Shown piece by piece: positions 12,451 to 63,737 of a DNA stretch of 64,000 nt. The position numbers and the translations under genes are program-made. The stretch covers positions 1 through 64,000 of the forward strand of contig CAMVAP010000010.1 in assembly GCA_947165485.1 (NCBI GenBank). Reading direction: 5' to 3'. Positions within the stretch are counted from its first letter, which is position 1; each line of letters opens with the position of its first letter. The stretch is from an uncultured Prevotellaceae bacterium. GTDB taxonomy: Bacteria > Bacteroidota > Bacteroidia > Bacteroidales > Muribaculaceae. The notes under the pieces were generated by a model. It had not been told where the DNA came from and ran no database searches. It saw only the letters and a program-made list of their open reading frames with translations.

Positions 12451-12468
12451 ATTTTTTTCAGTTGTTAG

Positions 12469-12654
12469 TTCTTAGTTGTTAGTTGTTAGTTGTTTTAGTT
12501 TCTAGTCCCTAGTTTCTAGTTCCTAGTTTCTAGCTGGCATCCGCAAACGCCTAAAGCCTAAAACCTAAAACCTAAAGCCTAATGCCTAAAACCTAAAACC
12601 TAAAGCCTAAAGCCTAAAGCCTAAAGCCTAAAGCCTAAAGCCTAAAGCCTAACT
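12469..12654 (-). repeat. heptamer composite element, copy 1 (dnaE leader)
   Basis: Read towards dnaE (minus strand) it has three parts: 15 heptamers of the CTTTAGG type (12550-12654 on the plus strand as CCTAAAG), the core GCGGATGCCA (12535-12544), then CTAGAAA-type and CTAACAA-type heptamers up to 18 bases before the dnaE ATG. The same order and orientation relative to the downstream gene recurs at 16105-16200, 16352-16419 and 21943-22062. Confidence 0.9.
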
Positions 12655-12666
12655 AGTTTAAGAGCG

Positions 12667-12697
12667 TAAAATTACACCATTTTACCCACCCCACAAA
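12667..12697 (-). promoter_or_regulatory. probable dnaE promoter
   Basis: Minus strand TTTG, a 19-base spacer, then TAATTTTA, one mismatch from TAnnTTTG. If used, the transcript begins just upstream of the heptamer array and carries it as 5' leader. Confidence 0.5.
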
Positions 12698-12780
12698 AAA
12701 AAGTTATCAACAACCAGCCTAGATACAGTGAGGCGCCAGAAAACCATGTCCCTGACGCCCAAACTGGCGGTTTCCATTTT

Positions 12781-12806
12781 TTCCATTTTTCCACGAGCAC
12801 ACGGGG
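12781..12806 (+). repeat. 26-bp repeat, left copy, flanking the terminase/ATPase pair
   Basis: The stretch TTCCATTTTTCCACGAG followed by CACACGGGG recurs with few changes at 16072-16097 (TTCCATTTTTTCCACGAG, then TACAGGGG). Both copies lie on the plus strand, just past the 3' ends of the terminase gene and of the divergent ATPase gene. They could be target-site or recombination repeats. The TTCCATTTTTTCC part also occurs elsewhere in gaps, so only the CCACGAG...GGGG portion is distinctive. Confidence 0.5.
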
Positions 12807-12809
12807 TTT

Positions 12810-14660
12810 TTACAGTCCGTAGCCTTGCAGACGCAAGATGTCGGCGGGCGTATAGGGTGCGGTTGACTTCAAGGCGATTTCCCTGACGATGAACAGCGCC
12901 TCGGCCCGATTCACGAGATACTGCTGATGCTCACGGTGTTCGGCATAATAGCGGCCATTGGGTAACAGGGTCATGTGGGCTATCGCCGTGGCTGCCGTCT
13001 TGTCACGGTCACAATACAGGTTATTCTTGGCACTCAATATCAATTCATAGAACATCAACGAGAAGTTTTTCTTATCCACCTCCAGCACATTGCCGCGGCG
13101 CTCATTGAAGTAGAGGTTGCGGTATTTCATGAACAACTCATTCTGGACAAAGGTGCCCTGCTGACGGTTGCTCTGCCTCGACTCGATATCATTATTCTCG
13201 ATGACCAGCAAGGCGTTGTCATAGCTTCCCGCCACCCTCATGGCATCGACGGCCAGCAGGTTGAGCGGTTTATTGCCCACCCACTGGGCGACCAGTGACG
13301 GACGCCCGGGCTTGCCCGAGTTGTCACGGTTGGTGTCCCAAATGCTCATCACCGTGGGCAGATTCACGTCGGTCTCGCTACCGATGGTCAACATGGCCAG
13401 ATAACGGCTACTGAGCCCTCGACGGACGGGGTTAGGCATTTGCCACACTTCATCATTGCGACTGGCGGGCGACGCTGTTGTCCCGTGTTCTATCCCTTGC
13501 CAGATGTCCCAGCCGCTCGACGTCTGCTCCCGCGGCGCCTCGATGGCTTCGATGATCTGTTCTTGCTCCATGGTCGAGAAGACGTGTTCCACACTGTTCT
13601 CAAACGCCTCGTGGGCGTTGCTGGGAAACTCGGCTTTCATCAGGTTGTGCTCGCTGTACTCCTTGCGCTTCTCGTGGTACCAGTTGACCTGCTCCAGCGT
13701 GCAGCCCTGCTCCCACAGTGCCCGCTCGTAGTCATCACACTGGTCCAGGTCAAAATCATCGTCGAGGGGCAACTGATAGATGTCGATTTCATGCCAGGCG
13801 ACAAACACGGGCTTGAAGGCACTCCTGCCCTCCACCGCCCGTTGCCACTCGGTGTAGAAAAAGGAGTTGGTGCCGTTGGCCGTGCTCTCCATCACGATGA
13901 CCGTGCCTGCTGCCATGGGGATGGTGCCCGTGACGGTGCGTATCAGGTCGTTAGGGTCGATGTTGCGGTTAGCGTTCCAGAAGGCCACCTCGCTCAGGTG
14001 GGCCAGCGACAGGTTCAATCCCCTGGCCGAGTCGGGCGAGTAGCTGCTGGTCAGGCAGACGAGGCTATCCCTTGTGGTGAGTTCCTGAATGTCCTTGCTG
14101 TCGGGCACGTTCTTGAGCTTCAACTGCTCGCCCTCGTCAAGCATCTCGGGCGGATAATTGGCCAGCATGGTCTTGAACATCTGCTTGATGGCAAAGCTGC
14201 TATTGCGCTTGTGTCCCACGATGACCGAGTTACGCCCCTTGCCAGCGGCAATCTGGAGCCAGGCGATATACATCTGCACCAGCGTGGAGCCGCCCCACTG
14301 GCGGGCCTTCAACAGGATAATGCGCACGGGCTGACCCGACAGCCGCTGCTCCTCCATGGCAGCCAGCAGCTTGCGTTGCGGGCGATTGAGGACAAAGGGG
14401 ATGAGACGGCCCGACATCTTGTCGATGATCTTGACGCAGCGCCAGCACCAGTATTCAAAGTCGTGCCTGATTCTCGCCCGCTGCTGCTCGATGCTGGTCA
14501 TGTTCATGTAATCGGGACACTCCTCAAGCAGGGTCACTGGCACACGAGCACCATTACAATCAACCCGATCACCCTGACAATGAATGCCAAGTTCGGGGTC
14601 ATACTGCTCTTGCAGCTGTTGAATGCGTTTTTCATTTTCTATCAATAATTGTGTCTTCAT
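12810..14660 (-). CDS. phage terminase large subunit-like protein
   Basis: 616 residues. The ATPase domain has a Walker A-like KARQWGGST (118-126), a Walker B-like SLAHLSEVAFW near residue 215 and a coupling segment VIVMESTANGTNSF. The C-terminal half has the nuclease-like LLAVDAMRVAGSYDN and LLVIENND. Terminases package DNA into phage heads. No portal, capsid or small terminase gene lies nearby, so this may be an orphan, a satellite gene or a domesticated nuclease-ATPase. It is intact, and a full-consensus promoter precedes it. I chose the ATG at 14660 over 14690 because the upstream start would lie on the promoter element. Confidence 0.75.
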   Translation of the reverse strand: MKTQLLIENEKRIQQLQEQYDPELGIHCQGDRVDCNGARVPVTLLEECPDYMNMTSIEQQRARIRHDFEYWCWRCVKIIDKMSGRLIPFVLNRPQRKLLAAMEEQRLSGQPVRIILLKARQWGGSTLVQMYIAWLQIAAGKGRNSVIVGHKRNSSFAIKQMFKTMLANYPPEMLDEGEQLKLKNVPDSKDIQELTTRDSLVCLTSSYSPDSARGLNLSLAHLSEVAFWNANRNIDPNDLIRTVTGTIPMAAGTVIVMESTANGTNSFFYTEWQRAVEGRSAFKPVFVAWHEIDIYQLPLDDDFDLDQCDDYERALWEQGCTLEQVNWYHEKRKEYSEHNLMKAEFPSNAHEAFENSVEHVFSTMEQEQIIEAIEAPREQTSSGWDIWQGIEHGTTASPASRNDEVWQMPNPVRRGLSSRYLAMLTIGSETDVNLPTVMSIWDTNRDNSGKPGRPSLVAQWVGNKPLNLLAVDAMRVAGSYDNALLVIENNDIESRQSNRQQGTFVQNELFMKYRNLYFNERRGNVLEVDKKNFSLMFYELILSAKNNLYCDRDKTAATAIAHMTLLPNGRYYAEHREHQQYLVNRAEALFIVREIALKSTAPYTPADILRLQGYGL

Positions 14661-14687
14661 GATATTGGATTTAATGATTTGTGGATG

Positions 14688-14718
14688 CAAAATTACAACA
14701 TCAATAGACCGATTGCAA
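14688..14718 (-). promoter_or_regulatory. promoter for the terminase-like gene
   Basis: Minus strand TTG (14718-14716), 20-base spacer, TAATTTTG (14695-14688): a good match to the Bacteroidales consensus. The -7 element ends 27 bases before the chosen ATG. Confidence 0.65.
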
Positions 14719-14809
14719 GTATTATTGGTGAAATTTCATCATTTTGTTAATAAAATAACCATATATAATAATGTAAAGATGGTGTGATGCAAATTTTTTC
14801 ACGAAATTA

Positions 14810-14841
14810 TTTGTTACTTTACAATTATTGATATACCTTTG
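14810..14841 (+). promoter_or_regulatory. promoter for the ATPase/primase-like operon
   Basis: TTTG (14810-14813), 20-base spacer, TACCTTTG (14834-14841). It drives rightward transcription into the gene at 14929 and is back to back with the terminase promoter about 100 bases away. Confidence 0.75.
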
Positions 14842-14928
14842 CACCCACAACAGATTTATTAATCACAGTTTGCCAGCGAGGCATCCATGCTCAACTGGCA
14901 TCAAATCCATTAAAAACACAAATTTACC

Positions 14929-16011
14929 ATGAACAACAATGATTTCATCAATGAGCTACGGCTCGACCGTGAGCAGCTTGCCGCTCAAGAAACCTTCATC
15001 GAGAAGAAGAAAAGGGAGTATTGCATTGACCGCAACATCGACTACCCCGACCCCGACTATCTCATCGAGATCGGGGGCGTGCCCACCATGCCCAAGGGTA
15101 ACCTCGTCGCCTTGAGCGCCAAGTGGAAGAACGGCAAGACCTTCTTCTGTGACATCCTGAGCGCCGTCTTCCTGGGGGCAAACGGTTTTGGCGCAGTGCG
15201 AGCGTTGAAACCCAGCGGCAAGGTGCAGTTCTATGACACCGAGCAGGCAGTGAGCGACACCGCCCGCATTCTCAAGGTGATTAACTCGATGACCAGCGAG
15301 CACCGGCACGACGACATCAAAGTCTATTGCCTGCGTAACGCTTGCATCGAGAATATGGACAATAACACCAACGAAATCACCAGGCTGGACTTTATCAGCC
15401 AGACGATTGCCAGCGACCGCCCCGACATGGTCATTATCGACGGTATTGCCGACTTGATCTACAACTACAATGACGTGATCGAGAGTCAGACGGTGGTCAA
15501 CAACCTGGCCGCGCTGGCCAATGAGAACAATTGCTGCATCGTCGTGGTCATGCACCAGAACAAGTCCAAGCAGGACAAGGCCATGAAAGGCCACCTGGGT
15601 ACCATGCTGTTCCAGAAGTGCAGCGACGTGTTCAGCGTCGAGAAAGTCTCCAACCTGTTTATCGTCTCCCACCAGGTGTCACGCCACCGCCAGTGTGAAG
15701 ACTTCGTCTTCAAGATCGGGCTTGACGGCGTTCCCGTCGATGCCGCTGCCGACCGCCAGCAGGCCGAGGAGTTGAAGAAGCAAAGCGAGCAGCAACAGCT
15801 CATCACCACCATGCGGCAGGTCATGCAGAACGGCGCGCGGGAATGCCAGCGCAAGTACATCGTCAAGCACATGACCGAGCAAGGCATGTGCAAGACGAGC
15901 AAGGCCTATCAATATGTCAACGAAGCCATTGAGCAAAAAATCCTCGAGAGCGATAACGGTGTCACCTATCGCTTGTCGCCACAGTATTGCGACAGCAATA
16001 CTCCTTTATAA
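14929..16011 (+). CDS. RecA-fold (RepA/AAA_25-like) ATPase with C-terminal winged helix
   Basis: 360 residues. Residues 55-260 form a RecA-like ATPase: SAKWKNGKTFF (63-73) as a Walker A variant, PDMVIIDGIADL as Walker B, and VVVMHQNKS as a later sensor. The C-terminal 60 residues (ECQRKYIVKHM...YVNEAIEQKIL) look like a winged helix. This layout is typical of plasmid and mobile-element RepA-like helicases or loader ATPases in Bacteroidales. With the TOPRIM protein downstream it suggests a small replication module. A role outside replication cannot be excluded. Confidence 0.7.
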   Translation: MNNNDFINELRLDREQLAAQETFIEKKKREYCIDRNIDYPDPDYLIEIGGVPTMPKGNLVALSAKWKNGKTFFCDILSAVFLGANGFGAVRALKPSGKVQFYDTEQAVSDTARILKVINSMTSEHRHDDIKVYCLRNACIENMDNNTNEITRLDFISQTIASDRPDMVIIDGIADLIYNYNDVIESQTVVNNLAALANENNCCIVVVMHQNKSKQDKAMKGHLGTMLFQKCSDVFSVEKVSNLFIVSHQVSRHRQCEDFVFKIGLDGVPVDAAADRQQAEELKKQSEQQQLITTMRQVMQNGARECQRKYIVKHMTEQGMCKTSKAYQYVNEAIEQKILESDNGVTYRLSPQYCDSNTPL

Positions 16012-16071
16012 TATATATTGATGTAAAAAATGGAAAAAATAAAAAATGGAAAATTCCAACCATTCCATCCA

Positions 16072-16097
16072 TTCCATTTTTTCCACGAGTACAGGGG
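16072..16097 (+). repeat. 26-bp repeat, right copy
   Basis: Direct-repeat partner of 12781-12806, lying 60 bases past the ATPase stop. The pair brackets the divergent terminase and ATPase genes. Confidence 0.5.
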
Positions 16098-16104
16098 TAT
16101 CATT

Positions 16105-16200
16105 TTTTAGGCTTTAGGTTTTAGGCTTTAGGCTTTAGGCGTTTGCGGATGCCAACTAGAAACTAGAAACTAGGGACTAGAAACTAAAAAAACTAACAAC
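16105..16200 (+). repeat. heptamer composite element, copy 2
   Basis: About five TTTAGGC-type heptamers, the core GCGGATGCCA (16145-16154), then ACTAGAA/ACTAGGG heptamers and CTAACAA, ending a few bases before the ATG at 16205. It has the same order and orientation to the next gene as the other copies. Confidence 0.9.
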
Positions 16201-16204
16201 TATC

Positions 16205-16354
16205 ATGGAATTTACAATCGACATCATCGACATCAAGACTGGGGAAACCGTGGACTGCTACTTCACTGAGAGCTCCAGCGCATGGGAAGCCATCCGTGAA
16301 GCTAAAGAGTATGCAGGCTATGACCCCGAGGATTATGAATTTGAAATCGTTTAG
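16205..16354 (+). CDS. small acidic protein of unknown function (49 aa)
   Basis: ATG at 16205, TAG at 16352-16354; the protein begins MEFTIDIIDIKTGETVDCYF and ends in EDYEFEIV. It is rich in Asp/Glu and reads like a small beta-alpha domain. The frame fills the space between two heptamer elements: its ATG follows one array with the spacer CTATC, and its stop codon is part of the first TTTAGGC unit of the next array. The next gene starts with the same CTATCATG junction, which supports this being a real gene. The function is not recognised; position suggests an accessory role in the replication module. Confidence 0.65.
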   Translation: MEFTIDIIDIKTGETVDCYFTESSSAWEAIREAKEYAGYDPEDYEFEIV

Positions 16355-16419
16355 GCTTTAGGTCTTAGGCTTTAGGCGGATGCCAACTAACAACTAACAA
16401 CTAACAACTAATAACTATC
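16352..16419 (+). repeat. heptamer composite element, copy 3
   Basis: About four TTTAGGC-type units, the core GCGGATGCCA (16376-16385), then four ACTAACA-type heptamers ending in CTATC directly before the ATG at 16420. This copy lacks the ACTAGAA block. Confidence 0.9.
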
Positions 16420-17061
16420 ATGGACATGATTGAAATCATCAACGAGTTAAGAAAACAGTACCTCTCCAGCGACAATCAGGTACTTGTCATCACTGTGTTT
16501 AACGACGGCTTTATGGTCAACCGCAAGCCCCGCTATGGGAAGAATGTGGAAAACGCCCTTGCCGAACTGGAAAAGACCGTGACGGACAGGGCAGGCTCGG
16601 CGGCACCAGCCGTTAAAGTTCCCCCCGTCAAGCCCATCAAGGTGCTCCCCATCGACCGTGACGGCGCGCGCAAGCGTGTTCCCAGTGGCGAACAGGTGCT
16701 CTCGGGCAGTCACACCAGCAAGTGGTGGTCACGCTACCACTTTGAGAAAAACCTGCTCACGCTGGCCTTCCACCAGCTACAGGATGAGTTCCCCGGTCAA
16801 CACTGGTTTGTCTCTACCCGGGTAGCCCAGGTGATGAGCCAGGTGATGGGCTTGAAGATCGCCACGGCCAAGAAGCACATCACCACCGCCCTCAAGCTGG
16901 GCATCATCATCAAGGCCAGGGATGGCGCCAACACCATCATCGCCATGGCCGCAGTAGCCGACACCGAAGAGGCCGACACGGCCACCGATGAGGGCGGTGA
17001 CGGGCAGGACACCACATTCACAAAGCAAGCAGCCGATGAAATCGAGAAAGCGCTCCCCTAG
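16420..17061 (+). CDS. unknown protein with winged-helix-like region
   Basis: 213 residues. Residues 1-50 form a small alpha/beta segment; 55-95 are proline- and basic-rich; about 98-168 (SKWWSRYHFEKNLL...VAQVMSQVMGLKIATAKKHITTALKLGII) resemble a winged helix-turn-helix; the tail is acidic. Such a domain next to a RecA-fold ATPase and a primase-like protein would suit an initiator or loader, but this is inferred from position. Its 3' end overlaps the next gene by 26 bases if that gene starts at 17036. Confidence 0.55.
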   Translation: MDMIEIINELRKQYLSSDNQVLVITVFNDGFMVNRKPRYGKNVENALAELEKTVTDRAGSAAPAVKVPPVKPIKVLPIDRDGARKRVPSGEQVLSGSHTSKWWSRYHFEKNLLTLAFHQLQDEFPGQHWFVSTRVAQVMSQVMGLKIATAKKHITTALKLGIIIKARDGANTIIAMAAVADTEEADTATDEGGDGQDTTFTKQAADEIEKALP

Positions 17062-18109
17062 ATCGGGCTATTACTACCCCGTTGACATCGACCAGCTCGC
17101 CAGCGACCTCGTCGCACGGGGCATCGACATCGCCCCCACCCGCCAGTCATGGACCGCTGTGGCACGGGACATCGCCGATGGCGCTGGCGAGGCGGGCAGG
17201 GAGGCCTTTCACCTCATCGCCAGCGTGTGGCCCGACTACTCCCGCCGCGACAGCGAGCACTGCTTTGACCGTGCCCTGAGGCAAGCCGACGGTTCACGGG
17301 CCCACATGCCCTATGTCAAGGCGGCCTGCCGTCGCCATGGCATTCTTATCGACAACCGGCGTTACCGCAAGGGCGCTCCAGTCAAGTTTCAAGTAAAAAC
17401 CATCAACAAAACAACAACAGTCATGATAGATAAAGAAAAATTCAAGCGCAGCCAGCTGGGCGGGCGCTCACTCAGGGGGCTATGCCCGTTGACCGACCTG
17501 ATGCTCAACCTGTTCCCGCAACAAGCGGTGCTCGATGCCGCCAGCGACTACCTGCTGGGCTTCAACGCCATCCTCAACGGCACTGTGGCCGATTCACTCA
17601 TCTTCTGGCAAGTGGATGAGAACTATAACATCGTCAACGCCAAGCGCATCTACTACAAGAGCAACGGGCACCGTGACAAGCGATATAACCCCATGGTCAT
17701 GTTCCCCGCCAACGGGCAATGCCTGTTCGGGCTGCACCTGCTCCACGAGAAGCCCGACCTGCCCATCGGCATCGTCGAGAGCGAGAAATCGGCCATCGTC
17801 ATGGCGGTCAACGACCCGTCCATGTTGTGGATGGCCACGGGCAGTCTAGACAACTTCAACGGCAGGATGCTCCTGCCACTGGCAGGCAGGAGGATTATCG
17901 CCTATCCCGACCTCGACAACAAGCGGGGCAAGGGCAGCGTTTATAGCTACACCCTTGAGCAATGGAGAAAAACCGCTGTCGAGCTGAGTAAAAGCGGCCT
18001 TGATATCACCGTGAGCGACAAGCTGGAGAAGATGGCTAATGCCGCCAAGCGGCTTGCCAAGTGGGACATCGCCGACTTTGTGATCTATTCACGCATTTAT
18101 CATCTATAA
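17036..18109 (+). CDS. TOPRIM primase-like protein (DUF6371-type)
   Basis: 357 residues from ATG 17036; a start at 16988 would add 16 residues and lengthen the overlap with the upstream gene. Residues 20-85 resemble the primase C-terminal PriCT-like helical domain (WTAVARDIADGAGEAGREAFHLI cut short here). The later part has TOPRIM-like acidic motifs: GIVESEKSAIVMA (catalytic Glu) and IIAYPDLDNK (DxD). Bacteroidales mobile elements often carry such proteins for primer synthesis. Likely a replication partner of the ATPase at 14929. The fold assignment is by eye and moderately sure. Confidence 0.6.
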   Translation: MKSRKRSPRSGYYYPVDIDQLASDLVARGIDIAPTRQSWTAVARDIADGAGEAGREAFHLIASVWPDYSRRDSEHCFDRALRQADGSRAHMPYVKAACRRHGILIDNRRYRKGAPVKFQVKTINKTTTVMIDKEKFKRSQLGGRSLRGLCPLTDLMLNLFPQQAVLDAASDYLLGFNAILNGTVADSLIFWQVDENYNIVNAKRIYYKSNGHRDKRYNPMVMFPANGQCLFGLHLLHEKPDLPIGIVESEKSAIVMAVNDPSMLWMATGSLDNFNGRMLLPLAGRRIIAYPDLDNKRGKGSVYSYTLEQWRKTAVELSKSGLDITVSDKLEKMANAAKRLAKWDIADFVIYSRIYHL

Positions 18110-18122
18110 ATATAAATAAAAA

Positions 18123-18413
18123 ATGGAAAATCAGCAAGAACACCCCCGATTCAATCCCAGCGCGGCAATGACACTGGGCAAAGCGCTCGACGCTGTCCAC
18201 ACCATCCAGGCCAGGGTCGCTCCCGTGCATGACCTCGTCATGGAGGTGAGAGTGAATAGCGGCGACTCGATCGATGCCAGTCTCTACCTTGCCTTGAATG
18301 ACGGCAGCTTGATCATCCTTTACTCGGTCCACCTCAAGAAAGGCCAACCCCACGAGGATATCACAGCAAGGCTGCAATGCATGAATGCCATCGCCGATTG
18401 TTTCACCAACTAA
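18123..18413 (+). CDS. small protein of unknown function (96 aa)
   Basis: Begins MENQQEHPRFNPSAAMTLG, 13 bases after the primase-like gene on the same strand, so probably part of the same operon. It looks like one alpha/beta domain with strands around MEVRVNSGDSIDASLYLALN and LIILYSVHL. It has no membrane segment or motif I recognise. Confidence 0.6.
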   Translation: MENQQEHPRFNPSAAMTLGKALDAVHTIQARVAPVHDLVMEVRVNSGDSIDASLYLALNDGSLIILYSVHLKKGQPHEDITARLQCMNAIADCFTN

Positions 18414-18429
18414 AACACTATCATAAAAA

Positions 18430-18828
18430 ATGAACGACAATTATAACTACCCAGCCGGAGCCGACAATGCAGACGCTCCCTGGAATCAACCACCCGATCC
18501 TGAACCCATCGTCGTCAACGTGGAAGTGTTCGTCACCTTGAGGCATGAATCCACCGTGGGAACCGATAATTACACCGAGGGCGTTGATGGCTCGGGCTGC
18601 TACAACCGTGAGTTGCATGACAGCAGTGCCGACATCGAGAAGCTGTATAGAAACCAGCACTTCATGGTGCCTCGACTGCTAGAGCAACTCGCCCGCTACA
18701 TCGAGCAGGATCTCAAGGACCCATCAATCGACCGTGCAAGACGCCAGCAACTCAAGTTGATGCTGCTAGAGTGCCAGGGGTGGAAAGTCGATGATGTCTA
18801 TGTCGATTCCTACTATCACGAGTATTGA
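18430..18828 (+). CDS. protein of unknown function (132 aa), last gene of the island
   Basis: Starts 16 bases after the previous stop. The N-terminus is Asn/Asp/Pro-rich; a strand segment VVNVEVFVTLRHES and two helices (YRNQHFMVPRLLEQLARYIEQ; SIDRARRQQLKLMLLEC) follow. The family is not recognised. It ends the rightward gene set; a repeat-rich gap follows. Confidence 0.55.
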   Translation: MNDNYNYPAGADNADAPWNQPPDPEPIVVNVEVFVTLRHESTVGTDNYTEGVDGSGCYNRELHDSSADIEKLYRNQHFMVPRLLEQLARYIEQDLKDPSIDRARRQQLKLMLLECQGWKVDDVYVDSYYHEY

Positions 18829-19344
18829 AACCATTATTGAGCATTGACAGGGCGCTAAGTTCTTTGATAATAAATGATTGGTGTCCGGGGATAGTCCCGT
18901 TAGGGACGACCAGGGCATAGGCAGGGGTGTAACGAGGCGAAACCGAGTGCAACCCCTGCGATTGTCAAGGCTCTCGCCCAAGCCCCATCGGGGCGGCAGA
19001 GAGTTGATGATGATGAGCCTGCCGCCCCGATGGGGCTAAATATTGGGGGTGCCGACTTGATGCAGGGGTTCCGTTCGGCTTCGCCTCACTGCACCGCCTG
19101 CCTATAACCTGGCCAGCCCTAACGGGCTTCAGATGAAGAATCCTTTTTCTCGGCCTGCCATAAATCTCACGCCAGGGCGCTAAGTTCTTTGATAATAAAT
19201 GACTTAGTGTCTTAGCGTGGGGCTCCGTTGGCTGACCAGTTACCCGTGTGTTGGTGGAAAAAATGGAAAAAATGGAAGCCGCCCATGAGAGGGTGACTGA
19301 CTCACGGTTTTGCAAATGAGGATATATGGGGGGCTTGAGAGGTT
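18829..19344. other. repeat-rich intergenic region
   Basis: Apart from the palindromic element at 18848-19202, this gap holds CTTAGCGTG-type sequence near 19212 and a TGGAAAAAATGGAAAAAATGG stretch near 19256. I see no convincing gene or RNA gene. Possible frames across it are by-products of the palindrome. Confidence 0.5.
18848..19202. repeat. imperfect palindrome (~235 bp) flanked by a perfect 30-bp direct repeat
   Basis: The 30-mer starting CAGGGCGCTAAGTTCTTTG is identical at 18848-18877 and 19173-19202. Between the copies, 18894-19128 reads as one long imperfect palindrome centred near 19010. CCCGTTAGGG at 18896 has its reverse complement at 19117; a segment with GAGGCGAAACCGAG at 18934 has an inverted relative at about 19073-19087; and the centre is a perfect 19-bp inverted repeat (18981-18999 and 19019-19037, AGCCCCATCGGGGCGGCAG). 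This resembles a REP/BIME or MITE-like element. No transposase is encoded inside it. Confidence 0.8.
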
Positions 19345-21909
19345 CTAGAAGTTGAGGTGGAGGGCGATGCGGATGCCGTGGCGGTCGCTGGCGGCGTGCT
19401 GGCGGTGGGTGAGGCGCCACACGTAGTCGATGCGCAGCACGGTGAGGATGTTGTCGAGGCCCACGCCCATCTCGATGTAGGGTTTGCCTGCCAGGGGCTG
19501 GCAGGGAGCGTCGGTGGGGAAGAGGAAAATGCCGCGCAGGGGCGAGGCGGAGCCCATCACTTGCCGTTGCGGGGCGTTCTTTTCGCTCAATGAGCCCCAG
19601 ATGCCGCGCAGGGTGATGACCTCGCGCAGGCGCAGCCGCTTGATGAGCGGCAGGCGGTTCATCAGCACGCCGTTGCCCCAGTAGGTCAAGTCCCACGTGA
19701 GGGCTTGGTCGCTGATAAATTCCATGGGCTTCATCAGGGCGAAGGCCTCGGGCTGGATGGTGTAAGAGAGGTTGACGTTGGGCATCAACAGGTCGGGATA
19801 GGCCACGCGGCTCCACACTTTCTCGCCCTTGAGGATGACGTCGGCATAGCCGAAGGCCGAGAACCAGAACCGTTTCTGTAACCCCAACTCGGTCTTGTTG
19901 ACCTCGTAGAGGCTACCCATCAGTCCACGGGGCATGTAGGTGTGGTTGAGGGTGATGATGGGAGCGTCCATGTTGATGGGGATGCGGTAGGAACGTGCCT
20001 GGTAGAAGGTCTCGCCCGGGGCATACCGCAGCTGGATGGTAAAGCCCGCCTGGGTGTAGCGCTGGCGGGAGCTCCCGTCGGGACTGATGAAGGGCACATA
20101 CCGTGTCGCCTCGTGGATGTTGTGCTCCAGGCCCAGGGCAATGGACAGGTGGTTGTACCACTCGTGACGGTATTCCAGACGGGTGGTGCGCAGGTATTGC
20201 ATCCTCACGTCCTTGTGGCGCCTGAGGGTGAGGAAAACGTTGTCCTGGTTGGTGTAGAGGTAGTGCTGGGCCAGCTTATCGACGTCATAGCGGTGGGTGA
20301 GGCGCAGGCTGTGGATGGGAAACTCCTGATCCATCGCCCGCTTGGGGGTAAAGGAATACTCCAGCGAGCCCATGTACTTGAACTTGCGGTCGCGCGTACC
20401 GTAGGCCAGATAGGCACGGGCGAACCAATGGCGGCTCAAGTTGACTGTGGTCATTCCTCCCAAGCGCAACCGCACGCCCTCCAGCGAGTTGCCGCTGATG
20501 AGGGTGTTCAGGGGTCCCAGGTCCAGCTTGCTCACCCTGGCCGTGGGCACATAGCCGTTGACGAGCACCACCACGGCTTGCTCGGCCCAATAGAACAGCT
20601 TGGAGCCACGCAGGCGCTGCATCAGTCCCCTGGCGGTGGCAGTGGTGGCTCGCACCCCGGCAGGGCGGTATTCCTGCCAGAACTCATCGGGCATGTAGGG
20701 CGCATGGTTATCGACGGTGCGCTCGGCCTTGCCATTGAACACGCCCCCCTGTGGCCGCTCAAAGTTGTGGTCGCGGTAGGTCGTCTCGCGACGGGCAAAG
20801 AGCTCGGGCACCCCGGGCATCAGCTTGATGCTCACTTCCACATTGTCGCGCACCTTGAGACGCGATCCGTCCGGGGCACGCTCATAGTCCTGCACGATGC
20901 TCATGCGCTCCACATAGTTGAGGTTGATATCATAGGGGACACCCATCGACACGCGCTTGATAAACATGGTGGTGTCCTCAAGCGACACATACAGGCGTCC
21001 CAGGAATCCAAACGTCTGTGGCGTGAAGGGCACAAAACTCAATACCGCACACCGCTCACCATCGACCACGACGGTGTCATTGAGATAGAACTTATAGAAG
21101 TCCACGGCGATGCGCGACAGCGGGCTGACAAAGCGGTTGGTCAACAGCGTGACATCGTTCTGGAAAATATTCACCTCGCCCATGAAGTCATCAAGCACTT
21201 TCTTGATGTTCTCCTGGTCAATCTTCTCGTCCAGCCCGGCACTCTTCACGCCCAGGATCACCTGCTTGTGGGCATCGGGATTGCTGCTGTAGTAATCACG
21301 GGCAACGGTCTCCTTGATGGAAAACGGCAACACGCGTTTACCGGTGAGCAATGACGTGTCGGCATACTCCCTAATCCACTGTTGATCCTCGGGCTTGCGG
21401 ATCACCTCATCCAGGTCACCCAAGCCCACCATCATGCGTTCATATTGCGTATAGCCATAATGGGGCTGGCGCCGCGGGTCGTTGTCGTCACGCCGTGCCC
21501 GCAGCCGCTTGATCATATCCACAGCCGGATTATTCTTCTTACTGTATTTCTCCTTGCCCTTGTGCACAACGACTTCCCCCAGCTCGACGCCACTGGGTGA
21601 GAGGTCAACGAGCACGACACTGCCTTGGCCCGCGCGAATGGGAACGTCCTTGCCGGCATAGCCCATTGCCGTGACACGCAACGTGTTGAAGCTGGCACGG
21701 GTCATGATCGTGAAACCTCCCTTGTCATTAGCCAGGGTGCCCTCGCTGGTTCCCTTCAACACGATGGACGCATAGGCGATCGGCTCATGCGAGACCGAGT
21801 CGCGCACAAGCCCCGTTATCTGCGTCACCGCAGCCTGCTGTCCCATGGTCACCAGGGCAGAGGCCAGTAACGCCATCAAGCACACGATATGTCGGGCCGC
21901 GTCTTTCAC
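19345..21909 (-). CDS. DUF5686-family outer-membrane protein with carboxypeptidase-like N-terminal domain
   Basis: 854 residues. A signal peptide (hydrophobic around CLMALLASALVTMG) is followed by a carboxypeptidase-D-regulatory-like plug domain (TGLVRDSVSHEPIAYASIV). The middle region is the DUF5686 part, and the C-terminal 350 residues show alternating beta-barrel pattern ending in a terminal Phe (IALHLNF), as expected for an outer-membrane barrel. The family is conserved in Bacteroidota, function uncertain. The gene diverges from the LptF/G permease, with a heptamer element between them. Confidence 0.85.
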   Translation of the reverse strand: MKDAARHIVCLMALLASALVTMGQQAAVTQITGLVRDSVSHEPIAYASIVLKGTSEGTLANDKGGFTIMTRASFNTLRVTAMGYAGKDVPIRAGQGSVVLVDLSPSGVELGEVVVHKGKEKYSKKNNPAVDMIKRLRARRDDNDPRRQPHYGYTQYERMMVGLGDLDEVIRKPEDQQWIREYADTSLLTGKRVLPFSIKETVARDYYSSNPDAHKQVILGVKSAGLDEKIDQENIKKVLDDFMGEVNIFQNDVTLLTNRFVSPLSRIAVDFYKFYLNDTVVVDGERCAVLSFVPFTPQTFGFLGRLYVSLEDTTMFIKRVSMGVPYDINLNYVERMSIVQDYERAPDGSRLKVRDNVEVSIKLMPGVPELFARRETTYRDHNFERPQGGVFNGKAERTVDNHAPYMPDEFWQEYRPAGVRATTATARGLMQRLRGSKLFYWAEQAVVVLVNGYVPTARVSKLDLGPLNTLISGNSLEGVRLRLGGMTTVNLSRHWFARAYLAYGTRDRKFKYMGSLEYSFTPKRAMDQEFPIHSLRLTHRYDVDKLAQHYLYTNQDNVFLTLRRHKDVRMQYLRTTRLEYRHEWYNHLSIALGLEHNIHEATRYVPFISPDGSSRQRYTQAGFTIQLRYAPGETFYQARSYRIPINMDAPIITLNHTYMPRGLMGSLYEVNKTELGLQKRFWFSAFGYADVILKGEKVWSRVAYPDLLMPNVNLSYTIQPEAFALMKPMEFISDQALTWDLTYWGNGVLMNRLPLIKRLRLREVITLRGIWGSLSEKNAPQRQVMGSASPLRGIFLFPTDAPCQPLAGKPYIEMGVGLDNILTVLRIDYVWRLTHRQHAASDRHGIRIALHLNF

Positions 21910-21916
21910 AAGGGTG

Positions 21917-21924
21917 CAAAGGTA
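21917..21924 (-). promoter_or_regulatory. -7 element for the DUF5686 gene
   Basis: Minus strand TACCTTTG, seven bases upstream of the ATG at 21909. If used, the message has almost no leader. There is no clear -33 box; the heptamer array lies directly upstream instead. Confidence 0.45.
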
Positions 21925-21942
21925 ATAATTTTTTTTCAGTTG

Positions 21943-22062
21943 TTTAGGTTTTAGGCTTTAGGTGTTAGGCTTTAGGCTTTAGGCTTTAGGCTTTAGGCTT
22001 TAGGCTTTAGGTGTTTGCGGATGCCAACTAGAAACTAGGGACTAGAAACTAGGGACTAGAAA
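21943..22062 (+). repeat. heptamer composite element, copy 4
   Basis: About ten TTTAGGC-type heptamers, the core GCGGATGCCA (22017-22026), then ACTAGAA/ACTAGGG heptamers to about 22062. It is oriented towards the permease gene at 22124. Unlike copies 2 and 3, about 60 bases with a -7 element separate it from the start codon. Confidence 0.9.
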
Positions 22063-22087: not shown

Positions 22088-22120
22088 TAATTTTGCCGCG
22101 TTAATTGCTGCCAGAGGAGG
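22088..22120 (+). promoter_or_regulatory. -7 element and unusually strong Shine-Dalgarno site for the permease
   Basis: TAATTTTG (22088-22095) fits the -7 consensus; no -33 is seen. AGGAGG (22115-22120) sits three bases before the ATG at 22124. Strong ribosome-binding sites are rare in Bacteroidales, and this one fixes the start. Confidence 0.5.
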
Positions 22121-56728: not shown

Positions 56729-58546
56729 TTACTCCTCGGTCTTGGGAGCTTCTTCCTTACCCTCGTTCTTCTCGAGCTGAGCCTTGAGTGCAGCCAGGTC
56801 AGTAATGTCGCCCAGGGTAGTCTTCTCTACCTGAGGAGCTGCGGGAGCAGCCTCGGCGGCGGGCTTGGCGGCGGCAGCCTGACGACGGGCCTTGCGGGCC
56901 TCGTTGCGCTGCTCATCCTCAAAGATGCGGCTGTGAGACAGAATGATGTGCTTGCTGTCCTTGTTGAAGTCGATCACCTTGAACATCAAGGTCTCGCCCT
57001 GCTTAGCAGTGGTACCGTCTTCCTTGGTCAAGTGCTTGGGAGTTGCAAAGCCCTCAACGCCGTAGGGATCCAGACGGATCTGGCCACCACGCTCAGTGAG
57101 CTCGCTGATGGTACCCTCGTGCACGCTGCCACGGGTGAAGATGGTCTCATAGGTCTCCCAAGGATTCTCCTCGAGCTGCTTGTGACCCAGGCTCAGACGA
57201 CGGTTCTCCTTGTCGATGTCGAGAACGACAACGTCGATGGGAGCGTCAACCTTGGTAAACTCGCTCGGGTGCTTGATCTTCTTGGTCCAGGACAGGTCAC
57301 TGATGTGAATCAGACCCTCAACGCCCTCTTCCATCTCAACAAAGATACCGAAGTTGGTGAAGTTGCGCACCTTGGCGGTGTGCTTCGAGCCAACGGGGTA
57401 CTTCTCCTCGATGGTGTCCCAAGGATCATTGGTGAGCTGCTTAACGCCAAGCGACATCTTGCGGTCCTCGCGGTCCAGAGCCAGGATAACGGCCTCGACC
57501 TCGTCGCCCACCTTCATGAAGTCCTGTGCAGGACGCAGGCGCTGTGACCAGCTCATCTCGCTCACGTGAATCAAGCCCTCAACACCGGGAGCCACCTCAA
57601 CAAATGCACCGTAGTCGTACATAACGACAACCTTGCCCTTGATGTGGTCGCCCACCTTGAGGTTGGGATCCAGAGCATCCCAGGGATGCGGCTGGAGCTG
57701 CTTCAGACCCAGGGCGATGCGGTTCTTCTCCTCATTGAAGTCGAGGATAACCACGTTGAGCTTCTGCTCGGGTTGAACGATGTCGGCGGGGTTGTTGACA
57801 CGGCCCCACGACAGGTCGGTGATGTGAATCAGACCGTCCACGCCACCCAGGTCGATGAACACACCGTAGTTGGTGATGTTCTTGACGGTACCCTCGAGTA
57901 CCTGACCCTTCTCGAGCTTGGACATGATCTCTTTCTTCTGCTGTTCGAGCTCGGCCTCGATGAGTGCCTTGTGGCTCACAACAACATTGCGGAAGTCCTG
58001 GTTGATCTTCACGATCTTGAACTCCATGGTCTTGTCAACGTAATCATCGTAGTTGCGGATGGGGCGTACGTCGATCTGCGAACCAGGCAGGAAGGCCTCG
58101 ATGCCAAATACATCGACGATCATACCACCCTTGGTGCGGCACTTGATGTAACCCTTGATGATCTCGTTCTTCTCAAGCGCTTCGTTAACGCGATCCCAGC
58201 TCTTGGCCTGACGTGCACGCTTGTGCGACAGCACGAGCTGACCCTTCTTGTCCTCACGGTTCTCAACATACACTTCCACAGTGTCACCCACCTTGAGGTC
58301 GGGGTTGTAACGGAATTCGCTAACGGGAATGATGCCGTCCGACTTGGCACCGATGTTAACCACTACCTCGCGCTTGTTAATCGAGATAACAGTACCTTCG
58401 GTCACTTCGTTCTCCTGGAACTTGTTCAGGGAGTTGTCGTAGGTTTTTTCCAGTTCTTCAAAAGATTTGTCTCTTTTGGTCTCGCCTTTCTCATAGGCGT
58501 CCCAATCAAAATCGGCGATTGGAGAATTTTTTAATTCTTCGCTCAT
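56729..58546 (-). CDS. rpsA: 30S ribosomal protein S1
   Basis: 605 residues with six S1 RNA-binding repeats. The later ones carry clear signatures (GVFIDLGGVDGLIHITDLSW, GAFVEVAPGVEGLIHVSEMSW, GIFVEMEEGVEGLIHISDLSW). An Ala/Lys-rich low-complexity tail follows. S1 unwinds and delivers messages to the 30S subunit, likely important in a phylum with weak Shine-Dalgarno use. The leader contains a stem (58579-58602) and the upstream gap has two core-repeat relatives. Confidence 0.97.
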   Translation of the reverse strand: MSEELKNSPIADFDWDAYEKGETKRDKSFEELEKTYDNSLNKFQENEVTEGTVISINKREVVVNIGAKSDGIIPVSEFRYNPDLKVGDTVEVYVENREDKKGQLVLSHKRARQAKSWDRVNEALEKNEIIKGYIKCRTKGGMIVDVFGIEAFLPGSQIDVRPIRNYDDYVDKTMEFKIVKINQDFRNVVVSHKALIEAELEQQKKEIMSKLEKGQVLEGTVKNITNYGVFIDLGGVDGLIHITDLSWGRVNNPADIVQPEQKLNVVILDFNEEKNRIALGLKQLQPHPWDALDPNLKVGDHIKGKVVVMYDYGAFVEVAPGVEGLIHVSEMSWSQRLRPAQDFMKVGDEVEAVILALDREDRKMSLGVKQLTNDPWDTIEEKYPVGSKHTAKVRNFTNFGIFVEMEEGVEGLIHISDLSWTKKIKHPSEFTKVDAPIDVVVLDIDKENRRLSLGHKQLEENPWETYETIFTRGSVHEGTISELTERGGQIRLDPYGVEGFATPKHLTKEDGTTAKQGETLMFKVIDFNKDSKHIILSHSRIFEDEQRNEARKARRQAAAAKPAAEAAPAAPQVEKTTLGDITDLAALKAQLEKNEGKEEAPKTEE

Positions 58547-58640: not shown

Positions 58641-58661
58641 GCAAAAACACCACGATTTTTC

Positions 58662-58815
58662 TAAAAAACAACTGAATAATCTGATTTTTCTGAGGCATCC
58701 GCGCTTGGTTGCATCACGCTATTTTAAAAACAACCATAACAACATTTTTCAAACAACTTGAAACAACCTTTTTTAAAAAACAACTGATTTATCTGAAAAA
58801 TCTGATGGCATCCGC
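58662..58815 (-). repeat. two core-element relatives with 9-base units upstream of rpsA
   Basis: Read towards rpsA, GCGGATGCC occurs at 58702-58694 and 58815-58807. Each copy is followed by three 9-base units beginning TCAG, the last being TCAGTTGTT in both, then a T-run. The GCGGATGCC core is the same as in the heptamer elements at 12469-22062, but the array type differs. Confidence 0.75.
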
Positions 58816-59148: not shown

Positions 59149-60051
59149 CTATAGGGCAAGACGCAACCCAACGTCGTTGTTCGCGTACGACGGGGAGTCG
59201 CTGCTCCGGTTCGACACGTGGCAGTACCAGGCGCTGAGGAACCAACTGCCACCACGGTTCACGCGGTAAGAGCCCGATGCAGGGCCTGTTGGGTTTGTAG
59301 ATGGCGAACTGCTATAACTACCATACCAATCTTGACACCACTCCCAGACGTTGCCACTCATGTCGTACAAGCCCAATTCATTGGGAGCCTTGGTGCCAAC
59401 GGGGTGAGTACCATAATCGGGATGACTGCTGCCAAGTGCATAACTGTTACCGTCGTACCATGCCACATCACCGATGGTGTTGCTGCCCGCATACTTGTAG
59501 CCCTGGCTAAGGTTACCGCCACGGGCAGCAAATTCCCACTCGGCCTCGGTGGGCAAGCGGAAAGTCTTGCCCGTCATTTCATTCAACTTGGTGATAAACG
59601 TCTGGCAGTCGTTCCATGAAACCGTCTCCACAGGATGGTTCAAGTCTCCCGTGAAATCACTCGGGTTACTTCCCATCACGGCCTGCCACAGAGCCTGGGT
59701 CACCTCAGTCTCACCAATGCTGAACGACGACAACGTCACCTCGTGGGCGGGCTTTTCATTATCGAGGGCGTCGCTGCCCTGCTCGGCCGTCGCGCCCATC
59801 GTGAATGTGCCACCCTCGACGGCCACCATCTTGAATGAAACGCCATTAACGGTATAGGTCTCATTTCCTCCACCTGGGTTACCGGGCTCATCTCCCCATG
59901 TCCCTGCTAACAGGTAGTCAATCAAAGTGGTCACATCACTGATAGTCACTTGACCATCCTGGTTCACATCTCCTCGCTGATACTCAACACCCGCAGTGAA
60001 TGAGGCCAACATCAACGACAACACACAAAATAAGATTGCAGTCTTTTTCAT
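59149..60051 (-). CDS. secreted FGE-sulfatase/C-type-lectin-fold protein, probable variable protein
   Basis: 300 residues. A signal peptide (MKKTAILFCVLSLMLASFTAG) is followed by one dockerin-like repeat (GDVNQDGQVTISDVTTLIDY). A formylglycine-generating-enzyme-like domain follows (FKMVAVEGGTFTMGA, RLPTEAEWEFAARGG, GLYDMSGNVWEWCQDWYG, RVNRGGSWF). Residues 269-293 consist largely of NNC codons (TTC, CTC, AGC, TAC, CAC, AGC, AGC, GAC, TCC, TAC, AAC, AAC, GAC) between fixed TCG, CGG, CCG and GCG codons. That is the pattern left when adenines of AAC codons are mutated by a diversity-generating retroelement. No reverse transcriptase or template lies in this window. It is probably a displayed ligand-binding protein. 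Confidence 0.82.
   Translation of the reverse strand: MKKTAILFCVLSLMLASFTAGVEYQRGDVNQDGQVTISDVTTLIDYLLAGTWGDEPGNPGGGNETYTVNGVSFKMVAVEGGTFTMGATAEQGSDALDNEKPAHEVTLSSFSIGETEVTQALWQAVMGSNPSDFTGDLNHPVETVSWNDCQTFITKLNEMTGKTFRLPTEAEWEFAARGGNLSQGYKYAGSNTIGDVAWYDGNSYALGSSHPDYGTHPVGTKAPNELGLYDMSGNVWEWCQDWYGSYSSSPSTNPTGPASGSYRVNRGGSWFLSAWYCHVSNRSSDSPSYANNDVGLRLAL
59165..59263 (-). other. candidate DGR variable region
   Basis: The 3' part of the FGE-like gene, from CGCGTGAACCGT to just before the stop. Codons ending in C with varied first two bases alternate with fixed G-ending codons rarely used elsewhere in the gene. Boundaries are approximate because the template is not in view. Confidence 0.55.
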
Positions 60052-63677: not shown

Positions 63678-63686
63678 GTTGATGAT

Positions 63687-63737
63687 CGATTATTCGAGTG
63701 ATCGAGTGGTCGAGTAATCGAGTAATCGAGTGATCGA
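63687..63737 (+). repeat. octamer array (CGAGTGAT/CGAGTAAT)
   Basis: Five units of 8 bases from 63695 (CGAGTGAT, CGAGTGGT, CGAGTAAT, CGAGTAAT, CGAGTGAT), bordered by ATCGAT-type sequence. It lies between convergent stops of the M16 peptidase and rsgA. Confidence 0.8.

Follow-up and report, generated by a model that had tools for sequence, protein, structure and literature searches.

Heptamer composites upstream of dnaE and other genes

The stretch of DNA analysed here, referred to as the window, comprises positions 1 to 64,000 of contig CAMVAP010000010.1 (assembly GCA_947165485.1) from an uncultured Prevotellaceae bacterium. It carries four copies of a composite intergenic element built from arrays of 7-bp units, in which a TTAGG-type array is followed by a 9-bp core, GCGGATGCC, and then by an array of ACTAG-type units, with an ACTAACA array added in elements 1 and 2. 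We found all four where a first-pass annotation had placed them, with the module order that it described (Table 1). It had also reported that three of the four end within 20 nt of an ATG, and this holds: the gap between array end and ATG is 9, 4 and 2 nt for elements 1, 2 and 3, and 61 nt for element 4.

Table 1. Coordinates of the composites and associated features in the window
Feature	Position	Strand	Remarks
Element 1, whole	12460..12652	-	
Element 1, TTAGG arm	12549-12652	-	
Element 1, core GCGGATGCC	12536-12544	-	
Element 1, ACTAGAA/ACTAGGG arm	12496-12533	-	
Element 1, ACTAACA arm	12460-12494	-	
dnaE ATG	12450	-	gene by Pfam
dnaE promoter-like block TTGTTGATAAC ... TAATTTTAC	12666..12713	-	same block by eye in close relatives
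Element 2	16105..16203	+	TTAGG arm, core 16145-16153, ACTAG arm, short ACTAACA arm; next ATG 16205
Element 3	16352..16419	+	core 16376-16384; next ATG 16420
Element 4	21943..22062	+	TTAGG arm, core 22017-22025, ACTAG arm; next ATG 22124
-7-like box TAATTTTG of LptF_LptG gene	22088..22095	+	downstream of element 4
Fifth mosaic	58650..58815	-	cores 58694-58702 and 58807-58815; gap between open reading frames 56729-58546 and 59149-60051

Element 1 (190 bp) sits between the promoter-like block and the ATG of dnaE. The arms of element 2 are predicted to be capable of pairing in register as RNA. Element 3, which has no TTT ahead of its core, occupies the entire gap between its neighbours, from the stop codon TAG at 16352-16354, itself within the first heptamer, to the ATG. 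Element 4 lies in a divergent gap between a DUF5686 gene on the (−) strand and an LptF_LptG gene on the (+) strand. A similar box, of the -7 consensus form TAnnTTTG, precedes the LptF_LptG gene in several relatives (by eye), and because element 4 lies upstream of this promoter box it is not a leader; the earlier description of the copies as leaders therefore suits elements 1 to 3 and fails for element 4. No Rfam family matched the window at gathering score.

Inward architecture, vocabulary and sidedness

Periods were counted in 464,000 bases of the source genome, consisting of the window and 20 stretches of 20 kb. A second sample of the source genome was enriched for the core (602,865 bases, ~20% of the genome), and a sample of relatives (913,034 bases) was chosen independently of the core, with 30 loci picked via the array pattern. 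Arrays were required to have at least four units (101 in the core-enriched sample), and cores to have no more than one mismatch and to lie beside 7-periodic sequence (57 in the same sample). Genes were called with a home-made dicodon scorer and no standard tool. The named relatives are metagenome-assembled genomes (MAGs) of uncultured Bacteroidales, Prevotellaceae or Muribaculaceae, with sheep, goat and roe deer named for three; one all-N stretch of a relative and one promoter-comparison locus, where the motif was not found, were dropped.

We found that neighbouring arrays face each other. Among array pairs within 60 bp in the core-enriched sample, 25 were inward, none outward and 11 on the same strand, where inward means a TTAG arm first and a CTRR arm second; the two arms form inverted repeats. 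The gap was exactly 17 in 14 of the 25 inward pairs. The unenriched sample gave six inward pairs (four of them in the window), none outward and one same-strand, and the relatives gave 17, 1 and 1, some of these being the same sites in two relatives, G035 and G036. Nine of the 17 inward pairs in relatives contained the core at no more than one mismatch, versus 3.3% of random windows. Unrelated genes carry the same core with the same spacing and arm order, and the earlier statement that the elements are more ordered than slippage is borne out by this common core, the inward polarity and the side-specific word types.

Period 7 stands out in the source genome, with 27 arrays in the 464,000 bases, a few of them made of other words, against 1, 3, 3 and 8 arrays for periods 6, 8, 9 and 14. 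Genome-wide, TTAGNNNTTAGNNNTTAG, a TTAG triple serving as a 7-base array pattern, occurs 577 times versus 3 for its reversed form, and GCGGATGCCANNTA occurs 70 times at no more than one mismatch (37 exact) versus 6 reversed. The core extended by TTT, TTTGCGGATGCC, is found 22 times and its reversed word not at all; each of 36 other genomes of the genus has 0-7 copies. Some arrays lie at contig ends (e.g. C3:5-57). Relatives use other words on the same skeleton, such as TTTAGAG, ACTGACA and TCTAACG, with the core in both orientations, and by eye the words are common within one genome and different between genomes. Low-level heptamer arrays spread wider than the genus. A four-unit CTRR pattern matched in 36 of 41 genus genomes, although its reversed control outnumbers it in a few (e.g. 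G004 and G016), and a fixed set of CTRACAA-type words without N matched in 20 of 395 genomes of the phylum, the source included, with 2 for the reversed control.

The core by itself is unspecific. Half of its 26 exact places in the 464,000 bases lie inside open reading frames (ORFs) and half outside, where outside makes up 12% of bases, and in the window its 30 occurrences at one mismatch are a mild excess over the 21.9 in shuffles. In the stretches sampled, exact 9-mers inside and outside ORFs, 13/13 in the source, number 10/3 in G026, 1/0 in G020, 5/4 in G033, 2/0 in G035, 1/0 in G036, 0/5 in G006 and 1/2 in G009. Per genome, GCGGATGCC occurs 67-203 times in the 18 genomes whose dnaE identity is 88% or more and 7-82 times in the other 23, two of them without a dnaE match. 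We dropped a clade-wide intergenic excess as a reading of these whole-genome counts and claim no such enrichment, because the counts mix genes and gaps and only 3 of 13 cores in G026 lie outside ORFs. In the relatives, 29 of 50 exact cores lie outside long ORFs, where 18% of the bases examined are, but some eight of these seem to belong to a single coding gene that precedes dnaE; for six control 9-mers the figures were 1/9, 2/26, 8/56, 1/1, 9/15 and 2/17.

The first-pass annotation had the elements always pointing at the next gene, which proved too strong. Of the 26 copies of its type (class A: at least two TTAGG-like units left of the core and at least two ACTAR units right), 23 are in sense with the downstream gene (P = 9e-5), or 16 versus 2 in co-directional gaps (P = 0.0013), and 13 of the 23 sense copies end no more than 20 nt from the predicted start. 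Taken together, the 57 array-flanked cores show no bias (23 sense/sense, 19 antisense/antisense, 9 mixed and 6 lacking a gene), because other types carry the core reversed. A broader rule relates the array words to gene edges: CCTAA-type arrays, which read TTAGG in sense, come after stops, and ACTRR-type arrays come before starts. In the core-enriched sample CCTAA-type arrays were distributed 6 (++) to 26 (--) and ACTRR-type arrays 30 (++) to 7 (--) (P = 2.1e-7); the unenriched subset gave 2/11/9/3 (P = 0.005), and the rule was replicated at 131 loci of other genomes (12/21/37/8, P = 4.8e-5). Arrays without a gene on both sides were left out (7 of 101 in the source, 9 of 135 in other genomes). 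Solitary arrays near a gene edge behave likewise, with ACTRR arrays at 10 starts and 3 stops and CCTAA arrays at 1 and 9; TCTRR-type arrays of other genomes show no side preference (8 and 8).

Arrays also touch gene edges. The outer array end lies no more than 20 nt from a gene edge in 54 of 93 cases in the source and 79 of 124 in other genomes, versus 6 of 93 and 19 of 124 for the inner end, a contrast that is partly built in because the inner ends of paired arrays face the core. Only 1 of 94 arrays in the source and 2 of 135 in other genomes lie within predicted genes, which is again partly built in because arrays contain stop codons. Most occupy co-directional gaps, stop-side as commonly as start-side, and in some genes the stop codon lies inside the first heptamers (window gene 16205-16354 and a gene on C15). 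Forward stop codons occur in all CTRR units but CTGG. Selection for stop codons in the units was considered and rejected, as CTGG is not depleted in the source genome (9 seen versus 7.8 expected); other genomes had 5 versus about 17, an expectation inflated by genome differences in word use.

Origin and possible use of the composites

A promoter-like block upstream of dnaE, TTGTTAATAAC ... TAATTTTACA, was seen by eye in close relatives, and in none of the 18 relatives compared does a composite lie between the promoter-like block and the dnaE ATG. G026 (93% protein identity) has a short dnaE leader, G033 has an AACTGAC array inside the leader, and upstream of the block G006 has a TTAGG array with the core reversed. 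In the same genome, G006, the lptF/G gap has no counterpart of element 4, though the neighbour is the same. Absence from the same upstream regions of the relatives that we read makes the composite a lineage-specific gain at dnaE and lptF/G. Array clusters of G035 were also looked up in G036, two of ten being chance runs within genes (by eye). Three array sites differ between these genomes, which represent two species, by whole units, at 14, 7 and 21 bp. In one G035 array (C1, ~68,400), four units read CCAG in G036 and CTAG in G035 with the GAA/GGG pattern largely kept; this parallel change across units is not explained by simple unit copying.

We consider that the composites probably belong to a dispersed, non-coding, modular and lineage-specific family of intergenic repeats whose changes come seven bases at a time and which is either filtered or put to use as a stop-side and start-side linker between genes. 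The unit would be an inward pair of heptamer arrays around the 9-bp GCGGATGCC, the 5′ arm on a YYAG skeleton (TTTAGGC) and the 3′ arm on a CTRR skeleton (ACTAGAA, ACTAACA), and the core can separate other periodic modules too. Copies would get into new gaps by dispersal, which is evident because core and words are common to unrelated genes and presence is lineage-specific; the unit itself would be mobile. Arrays would then lose or gain 7-bp units, most likely via slippage, as the 7-base steps at some sites suggest, and the copies retained would be those fitting gene edges. The TTAGG arm would provide or follow the stop codon of the preceding gene; the ACTRR arm, rich in A and poor in G, would stand before the ATG, suiting initiation without a Shine-Dalgarno sequence and perhaps affecting expression. 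Bacteroidetes mRNAs lack Shine-Dalgarno sequences, and A at -3, -6, -12 and -13 aids translation in Flavobacterium johnsoniae (PMC6847099). Here, A stands at -3 in 65% of 23 genes with a heptad in -25..-1 versus 41% of 371 others. Selection may lie behind the sidedness: loss of harmfully placed copies could produce it without the regulatory role that the first-pass annotation had suggested as an alternative to mobility. If the linker reading is true, many genes, dnaE included, obtain their start and stop contexts from a spreading repeat. The internal order, the common punctuation motif and a side rule replicated in other genomes make spread and function testable.

Besides the built-in part of the edge and position contrasts, several findings weigh against a dispersed linker family. 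Three of the 26 class-A copies are antisense, and the starts predicted by the home-made gene caller may lean to array edges. Seven of the eight real G035 clusters have a counterpart at the matching position in G036, so the arrays do not move quickly; the cores differ in two of three, and with differences of 0, 1, 8 and -25 bp in the other four intervals, some changes are not multiples of seven. In G032, G035 and G036 an array starts in register with the end of the adjacent coding sequence, a sign that local seeding occurs as well. Among intergenic cores in genus relatives, 12 of 30 have none of the five module types scored below, and some of these may be coding. No transposase partner was found among the Y1 family, the only one checked, and the one syntenic empty gap aligned had no target duplication or exact boundary. 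Of the earlier proposal that the element is mobile, lineage-specific dispersal is what stands.

It is conceivable, if rather doubtful, that GCGGATGCC is instead the recognition or junction site of a copy-and-assemble process that builds mosaics from 7-mer and ~9-mer modules used as standard gene linkers. The same process, held as tentatively, would have the TTAGG module close the upstream gene and the A-rich module open the next, in a phylum without Shine-Dalgarno initiation. A regulatory leader, that is a 5′-UTR (untranslated region) element that tunes translation of many genes through its RNA fold or a trans-acting factor bound to it, would account for the closeness to starts of three copies in the window and of 13 of the 23 class-A copies in sense, and for the position of element 1, which separates the ATG from the promoter block. 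Folding beats shuffles in element 1, of which part was folded, and in element 2 (z -3.85 and -2.92), each with a predicted core hairpin, but not in elements 3 and 4 (z -0.42 and -0.51). Across 56 of the 57 copies (the other does not lie inside one single stretch), folding scores against shuffles are somewhat negative on either strand (mean z -1.7 and -1.4) and differ between core-sense and antisense (P = 0.019); gene-sense folding is no better than antisense (42 copies, P = 0.28), and RNA structure as the function was dropped. With stop-side arrays as common as start-side ones, the composite missing at the same places in relatives and two of three orthologous cores differing between G035 and G036, we regard a leader as unlikely.

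Plain replication slippage, in which heptamer minisatellites arise separately in each gap with no mobile unit and an incidental core, has on its side the whole-unit length differences at three G035/G036 sites and the arrays in register with coding ends. Heptanucleotides also outnumber the other long simple repeats in most of the repeat-rich genomes that an earlier survey covered, as the introduction of a later paper relates (PMC4679880). It does not explain why unrelated genes have one core, spacing and arm order in common, or why polarity is fixed and words are shared within and not between genomes. Orthologous sites free of core and array were seen at two loci, dnaE and lptF/G. Slippage alone, too, seems improbable. 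Least probable, and in our view very unlikely, is a miniature inverted-repeat transposable element (MITE) or repetitive extragenic palindrome (REP) mobilised by a transposase of a known kind, its recognised end or hairpin being GCGGATGCC. Inverted core pairs around short loops (L080 and C38:8686/8714) and the hairpins predicted in elements 1 and 2 would suit it. At the best Y1-transposase locus in each of 30 genomes (92,778 bases), an array occurs in one case and an 8-bp core in five, so that REP membership, with repeats flanking a Y1 gene as for REP-associated tyrosine transposases (RAYTs), finds no link here. The aligned gap lacks a target duplication, and the genes between inverted copies at three places look by eye like HAD-type, lipoprotein-type and FKBP-type proteins.

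Related repeat families and other modules

Heptamer arrays in bacteria have been noted for years, to our knowledge with no agreed reason. They occur inside a cyanobacterial tRNA-Leu intron, and small dispersed repeats occur inside heptamer arrays. Porphyromonas gingivalis, host of one repeat compared below, is a member of the Bacteroidota. The composites are a variant of known intergenic heptamer and mosaic repeats; a literature search, which reached few subscription papers, found no published description of these Bacteroidales mosaics.

The TAACTGA intergenic heptamers of Beggiatoaceae, cyanobacteria and five Bacteroidetes (MacGregor 2015, PMC4679880), for which a translation-tuning role was proposed in Beggiatoaceae, are likewise direct repeats often right before start codons, with forward-frame stops and longer mixed arrays in some Bacteroidetes, and TAACTGA fits the CTRR skeleton. 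They use one fixed word, whereas the vocabularies here are species-specific, and the accessible part of that report describes no core, inverted arms or stop/start-side rule. In placement, class-A copies resemble them (23 of 26 in sense, 13 of 23 near a start), whereas the equally frequent stop-side arrays do not. Membership by word was rejected, since the units here (TTTAGGC, ACTAGAA, ACTAGGG, ACTAACA) have only the CTRR skeleton in common with it. The GGGANTN or GGGGA(C/T)T heptamers of Xanthomonas and Nostoc, with 186 and 183 loci and 70 and 75 inverted pairs in two Xanthomonas genomes, are also mostly intergenic, degenerate on a fixed skeleton, paired in inversion and variable in length between relatives; unlike ours their words form G-quadruplexes, and no common core is described in the text available (PMC4692102). 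The mosaics BOX of pneumococcus, NIME of Neisseria and BIME are non-coding, dispersed and modular, BOX having fixed modules plus one of variable copy number (PMC3049150). Their modules are not short-period degenerate arrays, and BOX is over-represented between convergent genes, while the arrays here lie mostly in co-directional gaps and touch gene edges. In combining varied modules with a recurrent motif, the present elements qualify as intergenic mosaics of this kind. The BrickBuilt MITE of P. gingivalis (19 copies in one strain) is intergenic too, with a tandem array in a repeat with inverted ends; it has a 23-bp unit, leader and tail subunits and lies 49-591 nt from coding sequences, in contrast to 7-bp units often abutting genes here (PMC4596501).

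The core also accompanies other periodic modules. In the fifth mosaic, which also has AACAAC-type words, a 37-nt repeat occurs twice at a spacing of 112 nt (81% identity) and each copy is followed by a core; L280 (MAG RUG14590) has modules in series punctuated by the core. We scored five module types (heptamers and AACAAC, AATTCG, CGCTAAG and GCGAGC words) within 70 nt of an intergenic 8-mer core. In named relatives 36 of 40 cores had at least one, versus 17% of random intergenic positions; genus relatives gave 18 of 30 versus 13%, and the source sample 5 of 7 versus 12%, a contrast that is partly circular as the words were picked after reading some of these sequences. In G000 (C9, ~17900-18200), a MITE-like insert with long inverted ends (GGGAAAGAGAGTGTATCAAAAG...) is nested in a class-C mosaic copy.

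The gene set at 12810-18828 is island-like, with an AAA_25 ATPase, a DUF6371 protein and unassigned ORFs. Relatives of the ATPase (51-63% identity) occur at 26 loci of uncultured Bacteroidales, many of them followed by short-word inverted repeats around a TATATA stretch, the words differing between genomes. No viral relative of the gene at 14929-16011 was confirmed in viral_contigs, where records very near the source genome may be missing. Two identical 30-nt repeats (CAGGGCGCTAAG...) lie 325 nt apart at 18848-19202, with nested inverted repeats between them that include a perfect 19-bp pair at 18981-19037, and a tandem array of 8-base units, TGATCGAG/TAATCGAG, lies at 63683-63737. The dnaE of distant genus members (G003, G005, G010, G011, G015 and others) aligns in two pieces around residues 60-67 within one open frame, which suggests a short insertion near these residues.

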